Assembly (NCBI GenBank): GCA_009781475.1
Contig: WQYB01000010.1
Coordinates: forward strand, 1-56,748
Direction of reading: 5' to 3'
DNA from: Treponema sp.
GTDB taxonomy: Bacteria > Spirochaetota > Spirochaetia > Treponematales > Breznakiellaceae
Length of the DNA stretch: 56,748 bases
In this document: positions 2,777 to 2,935 of the stretch, one piece after another
Numbering within the stretch: position 1 is the stretch's first letter
Layout: every line of letters begins with the position of its first letter
Made by a program: the position numbers and the translations under genes
The notes under the pieces: model-generated
The model's database searches: none
What the model saw: only the letters and a program-made list of their open reading frames with translations
What the model was told of the DNA's origin: nothing

Positions 2777-2792
2777 ATTTTCCTTCTATAAT

Positions 2793-2840
2793 AGAGAGAG
2801 AGAGAGAGAGAGAGAGAGAGAGAGAGAGAGAGAGAGAGAG
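2793..2840. repeat. (AG)24 dinucleotide tract, read as (CT)24 by the downstream gene
   Basis: This is an uninterrupted run of 24 AG units on the plus strand. Read from the minus-strand gene at 2776 it is (CT)24, ending 16 bases before the start codon and immediately before the AGAAGGA ribosome site. A pure dinucleotide tract of this length is expected to be hypermutable. It lies in the untranslated region between the divergent barrel-protein and histidine-kinase genes. Confidence 0.95.
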
Positions 2841-2935
2841 ATTTCGAATTTATGTTCATTTTTTCCATCATTGTGACTATTTTACCATTTCTATGTGAAA
2901 ATTGCAAGCCAAATGCAATTGATAGGAAAAATTAA

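Follow-up and report, generated by a model that had tools for sequence, protein, structure and literature searches.

A CT repeat upstream of a predicted Treponema outer-membrane protein gene probably lies in a translated, phase-variable leader cassette

A long tract of CT dinucleotides, T(CT)24, is located on the minus strand (2841-2793) of the Treponema sp. window analysed in this study, the window being the whole 56,748-nt stretch of contig WQYB01000010.1 (assembly GCA_009781475.1). Comparison with related copies makes it highly probable that this tract sits in a leader cassette that is both translated and phase-variable, and it is also probable, at a somewhat lower level of confidence, that the tract switches the downstream gene through the reading frame of the leader. 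The multi-copy nature of the cassette, the in-frame leader, the type of repeat units and the lipoprotein targets give good support to the original prediction, as a hypothesis, that surface genes are under a phase switch. Its statement that the mechanism could not be told was not sustained in full, as the relatives point to a leader open reading frame (ORF) that it had missed.

The tract was read by TRF as (AG)24.5 with 100% matches at 2793-2841, and 16 bases separate its end from the first ATG (ATG1, 2776) of the downstream gene, which bears out the pure 24-unit CT run predicted before the start codon. A first-order Markov model of the window gives an expectation of 1.3e-27 runs of this length, and for the other dinucleotides tested (CT, AC, GT, AT, TA and CG, plus strand) the longest run was 8 nt. 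A second contig of the same assembly, C35, terminates in the tract with the same 49 nt, and the 67 nt preceding the tract are identical in the two contigs. The value n=24 was also found at contig ends, or at most 16 nt from them, at loci L061, L107, L114, L115 and L116 in four genomes. Because n=24 recurs in this way, the exact repeat number may have been set by the assembler, and as several contigs stop in, or close to, a tract of the same length as that of the window, the phase of the window may be an assembly effect.

A promoter match, TTGCAA-17-TAAAAT (minus strand, 2907-2879), was found entirely upstream of the tract. Its -35 box (TTGCAA, 2907-2902) falls in a region that is identical at the end of C35 and similar in other copies; the -10 box (TAAAAT, 2884-2879) follows after a 17-bp spacer and lies 7 nt before the ATG of the leader (2871). 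A position of the tract between the -35 and -10 boxes, of which Haemophilus hif is the classic example, was therefore ruled out at this locus, and the option of promoter spacing raised by the original prediction is unlikely here. In the assembled phase (n=24), the leader ORF (minus strand, 2871-2764), whose frame is conserved among copies, encodes 35 aa, MMEKMNINSK(SL)8-YYRRKICII, with the repeat read as (Ser-Leu)n. This small and nearly leaderless ORF is predicted to be translated.

Directly behind the tract, the 3' flank of the element, ATTATAGAAG (minus strand, 2792-2783), is shared with other copies and contains a TAG (2788-2786) that is the stop codon of phase C. A Shine-Dalgarno-like AGAAGGA (minus strand, 2787-2781), as read from the sequence, overlaps this flank. 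With n=24, the leader stop codon (TGA) overlaps a second ATG of the outer-membrane protein gene (ATG2, 2767); with n=23, the leader ends 9 nt short of ATG1; and with n=25, it continues in another frame to a stop codon whose end lies 149 nt beyond the start of ATG1. An in-gene contingency tract was also considered for this locus and rejected, as the phase that is in frame with the gene (n=23) is blocked from fusion by the TAG behind the tract. No terminator was found between the leader ORF and the gene in the window copy, and the region 2500-3200 of the window had no Rfam match at E<=0.1.

The gene order described in the original prediction was confirmed, namely an ORF of 558 aa counted from ATG1 (minus strand, 2776-1100), a FecR-domain protein (minus strand, 1113-412; PF04773, E=5e-11) and a third, lipoprotein-like ORF, recognised by eye, which runs off the contig. 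The true start of the first gene is probably ATG2, from which the protein begins MKIRLFTLIILTSLTIGAFS..., signal-peptide-like by eye. The ORF of the supposed beta-barrel surface protein is thus present and the barrel itself is presumed: the 558-aa protein had no Pfam match, its 15-sequence profile had no PDB sequence relative at E<=1, and a single-sequence AF2 model was useless (pLDDT 33). The divergent gene upstream (plus strand, 3012-5657), identified by domain search as a dCache-PAS-histidine kinase-receiver gene, is outside the switch as far as seen. Elsewhere in the window, at 25175-26641, a leucine-rich repeat protein of the BspA type was noted, the DNA of which contains repeats of 66 bp.

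Conservation of the tract ahead of this outer-membrane protein family was rejected, since it was absent from all 29 homologous loci, which came from 28 relatives in the genus; up to 1500 nt upstream of each match were covered, and less in L048, L051 and L058. The window copy would rather be a shortened cassette that has become joined to the predicted outer-membrane protein gene. In the genome of the window, AG/CT runs of 16 nt or more are present at four loci (the window tract and three more), two of them at contig ends, and an additional copy with a short tract on contig C101. In the genus, the motif AATTCRAAWTCTCTCTCT gave 66 matches with at most two mismatches in 22 of 39 genomes, compared with 12 for the reversed control, and 25 of the 66 matches, in 11 genomes, were exact. 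When the 3' flank was used as a sequence model, matches were obtained in 17 of 39 genomes of the genus and in 25 of 145 genomes of the family, although some of the weaker ones are due to chance. Chance-like matches in coding DNA were not used as copies; these comprised some of the two-mismatch motif matches, weak model matches and most matches to WATAGAAGARRYTT, a search for which the reversed control was of similar size. By name, the matches comprised MAGs of Treponema sp., one MAG of Spirochaetales and two records of 'Spirochaetia bacterium', a set from which records close to that of the window may be missing. Several of the related MAGs are from termite gut, and the sample names Emb289 and Co191 appear in passages of termite-gut metagenome papers; from the samples of these relatives we infer the host of the window's organism. 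In one genome, two copies with 98% identical 120-nt upstream flanks had n=21 and n=13, respectively.

The distribution of copies also bears on two other possible origins, a neutral microsatellite or an artefact of assembly that affects the length or the joining of the tract. The sequence shared with C35 up to the point where that contig ends, the repeated n=24 near contig ends and the lack of the tract at the homologous loci would all agree with such an origin. It is nevertheless very unlikely, as the downstream flank on the window side is also element sequence, copies with both flanks conserved are present in many separate assemblies, and the frame of the leader is conserved.

This conservation was quantified for 31 leaders, using the rule that an ATG should lie 3-9 nt behind the -10 box. 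A -10 box and ATG were found by this rule in 27 of the 31, with a gap of 6-7 nt in 22 of these 27. Of the 27 ATGs, 26 shared the frame of the tract, and for 25 of them no stop codon intervened, at distances that ranged from 12 to 132 nt. The binomial probability of so many in-frame leaders is 7e-12 when relatedness is ignored, and approximately 5e-5 for the nine distinct distances alone. Four leaders (L063, L118, L119 and L149) had no -10 box and ATG by the rule, L130 was out of frame, and L114 was in frame with a stop; in all six, a different ATG that shares the frame of the tract was recognised by eye and was not counted. Three copies in genome G013 (L192-L194), outside the 31, are exceptions in which the leader was not readable as open into the tract.

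At the position of the tract, the relatives also presented AC and octamer units and, less convincingly, TA in one case and a heptamer in another. None of the observed units is a multiple of three. The AC tracts were read by eye as Thr-His (loci in reversed orientation being read as reverse complements), and the N-termini of the leaders vary widely among copies. A short repeat with a unit that is not a multiple of three, inside a predicted leader ORF, is the arrangement of the pil1 type known from Streptococcus gallolyticus.

In S. gallolyticus pil1 and pil3, according to passages of the report on these operons (PMC3894217), a repeat is present in a leader peptide, and it was shown experimentally that a change of frame moves the stop codon relative to a premature terminator. 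The likeness to the Treponema cassette extends to the short leader ORF, the repeat unit that is not a multiple of three, the surface genes downstream and the short-leader state of the majority, as these passages describe for pil1, and may extend to a frame that places the leader stop either before or in/after a terminator. By the same source, pil1 differs in its GCAGA pentamer, its restriction to two loci and its Gram-positive pili; the Treponema cassette has CT, AC or octamer units at many dispersed loci, is associated with spirochaete lipoproteins, is near-leaderless and is predicted from sequence.

Frames, hairpins and lipoboxes downstream of the tract were compared in 25 of 35 copies, those with a recognisable start codon, the start of L196 being set by hand. 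The window, L104, the second copy at L106, L109, L113, L120, L124, L132, L198 and L200 were omitted; L104 does have a terminator-like hairpin. A conserved block, TATAGAAGAAACTT...TTTTTCAGGGGATAGATCTGTCC, lies behind the tract, and its TAG closes frame C at once. The mean open length was 140 nt in frame A and 86 nt in frame B, compared with 64 +/- 9 nt in shuffled sequences. Beyond +63, both A (82) and C (74) were above the null value (44 +/- 7) and B (47) was not, so the excess openness in that part is not specific to A. In five copies, frame A ended in a TGA that shares bases with the ATGA of the gene, and the same was seen at ATG2 in the window; as the genes mostly begin with ATGAAA, an open frame leads to this overlap by itself, and it does not count as separate evidence. 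Between tract and gene, 10 of the 25 copies had a terminator-like hairpin (-8 kcal/mol or better), as against 1.9 +/- 1.0 in shuffles, and the scan gave no clear terminator in the other 15. In the ten copies with a hairpin, the leader stop was within or past the start of the hairpin nine times in frame A, five times in frame B and once in frame C. As a separate observation, the 3' flank block of many copies contains a near-palindrome, GGATAGATCTGTCC, varying to GGATAAATTTGTCC elsewhere, which is perhaps a candidate protein-binding site.

The phase was determined in 25 copies with both flanks, omitting family-level copies and those whose tract forms the beginning or the end of a contig, and was C in 16, B in 6 and A in 3. 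The excess of phase C was confined to the longer tracts, as 14 of the 17 copies that have n>=8 were in this phase, where one third would be expected; the other three were the window (A), L152 (B) and L108, which has an early stop in another frame. For n of 8-23 the proportion was 10/11, and for n<8 it was 2/8, with no bias. When the copies with odd leaders were added (L192, A; L193, C; L196, B), the proportion was 15/20. By the pil1 model, the majority in phase C would be a majority in the OFF state, or the early stop could instead be the expressed state. The exact ON/OFF polarity proposed here may be right or wrong with about equal probability.

The same excess of copies whose leader closes immediately after the tract might indicate that the (Ser-Leu)n peptide is itself the functional product, with the early stop of phase C as its normal form. 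This is extremely unlikely, given that a dinucleotide tract is a poor means of keeping a peptide, that AC tracts give Thr-His instead, and that the N-termini are so variable.

The mechanism favoured here is control of the downstream gene by the reading frame of the leader. The sigma-70-type promoter would start a transcript on which the near-leaderless ATG opens an ORF through the CT repeat. The gain or loss of one CT unit by slippage in the cell would shift the frame, and the ribosome would then either halt at the TAG behind the tract or continue towards the next gene. In most copies, overcoming a terminator-like hairpin or polarity would probably depend on the frame, as would the arrival of ribosomes at the start codon of the lipoprotein. 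In the window copy, an effect on expression may be exerted through translational coupling or interference, according to the position of the leader stop for a given n; as this copy is without a terminator, an action like that of pil1 would be only partly possible there.

The tract might also act in the mRNA leader independently of translation, with its length altering the accessibility of the RNA or its pairing with a small RNA or protein. The tract does lie within the transcribed leader, and a precedent is found in the length-variable G-repeat in the mRNA leader of Helicobacter pylori tlpB (hp0102), which controls a surface phenotype and is targeted by the small RNA RepG, as described in passages of PMC8295292. 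An effect of this kind is considered unlikely for the Treponema cassette, which instead indicates a translated leader: an in-frame ATG at very different distances fits a constraint on the reading frame, the exchange of CT for AC or octamer units is unlike a single RNA-pairing sequence, and no consensus RNA structure was obtained for the 3' flank of the copies, in addition to the negative Rfam search of the window.

In keeping with control of surface lipoproteins through the leader frame, a lipobox was identified by a simple rule in 23 of the 25 downstream proteins, compared with 5 of 55 ORFs of the window. The TA-unit copy, L198, is followed by a gene that does not encode a lipoprotein. Domains of the C-lectin type are frequent in the downstream lipoproteins. 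Among 20 downstream proteins scanned, seven had an FGE-sulfatase domain, six matched Lcl_C, all below the Pfam cut-off, one had RCC1 repeats, and two were CsgG/LpoB-like (one below the cut-off); the rest had no credible match.

A complete diversity-generating retroelement (DGR) was found directly behind a CT-tract leader in genome G006 (L272, contig C3, 1-3087), on a contig that begins inside the tract. The order is tract leader, Lcl_C lipoprotein with the variable repeat (VR), bAvd (PF22296, 2e-21), template repeat (TR) and reverse transcriptase (PF00078, 3e-14). The mismatches between VR and TR were at TR adenines in 19 of 20 cases, and in 14/16 and 19/21 in relatives. Similar DGRs are present in G009 and G013, and at approximately 1518 on contig C1 of G009 (L274) the promoter of the element stands before a DGR target gene with no tract. 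The window's own genome had no DGR-type reverse transcriptase at E<=1e-20 and no Avd match (PF05635) at E<=0.001. The DGR lipoproteins of T. denticola are alike in having targets with C-lectin-type domains and the set of VR, TR, accessory gene and reverse transcriptase, according to passages of PMC4891356. The word 'promoter' does not occur in the main text of that paper and a repeat leader is not mentioned in those passages, whereas the DGR of G006 is complete and stands behind a repeat leader.

The family genomes also contained a box like TGGCACGGNNNTTGC, which we take to resemble the sigma-54 consensus, directly abutting a CT or AC tract. This box was present in 51 of 195 family genomes with at most two mismatches, compared with 0 in the reversed control, and with up to 14 copies per genome (G056; examples are L309, L315, L321 and L334). 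The copies with this box would form a second, larger class in the family. Of 38 such copies read, 24 had a recognisable -10 box and ATG, and 22 of these 24 had a stop-free leader into the tract. Where the box abuts the tract, a sigma-54 transcript would start within the tract, in favour of a reading in which the tract alters promoter strength, through the spacing of the -35 and -10 boxes or the distance to an upstream activator site. An effect on promoter strength is distinctly unlikely, however, in view of the leaders that remain open into the tract in nearly all readable copies of this class and of the window promoter, which is complete, with its 17-bp spacer, before the tract begins.

It is tentatively suggested, at somewhat less than even probability, that the dispersed leader cassettes give a random ON/OFF choice per cell over many lipoproteins, some of them hypermutated by DGRs, and that a larger class has the sigma-54-like box immediately ahead of the tract. 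If this is true, both the choice of expression and the protein sequence would be randomised, a two-layer system absent from the literature found; no paper on this element was found in the open-access library searched. Phase variation by a leader ORF would then be a dispersed and reusable cassette of spirochaetes, beyond the pilus operons of one species, and stochastic ON/OFF control would be linked to the diversity that retroelements generate in the lectin-like surface lipoproteins of gut symbionts.

A further arrangement was observed at L200 (genome G036, contig C167, 330-941), where a heptamer run with an element-like flank is in one frame into a lipoprotein signal peptide (RRNFSRLVFMLGTVVIAAGILTAC), and this locus is possibly a classic in-gene switch.
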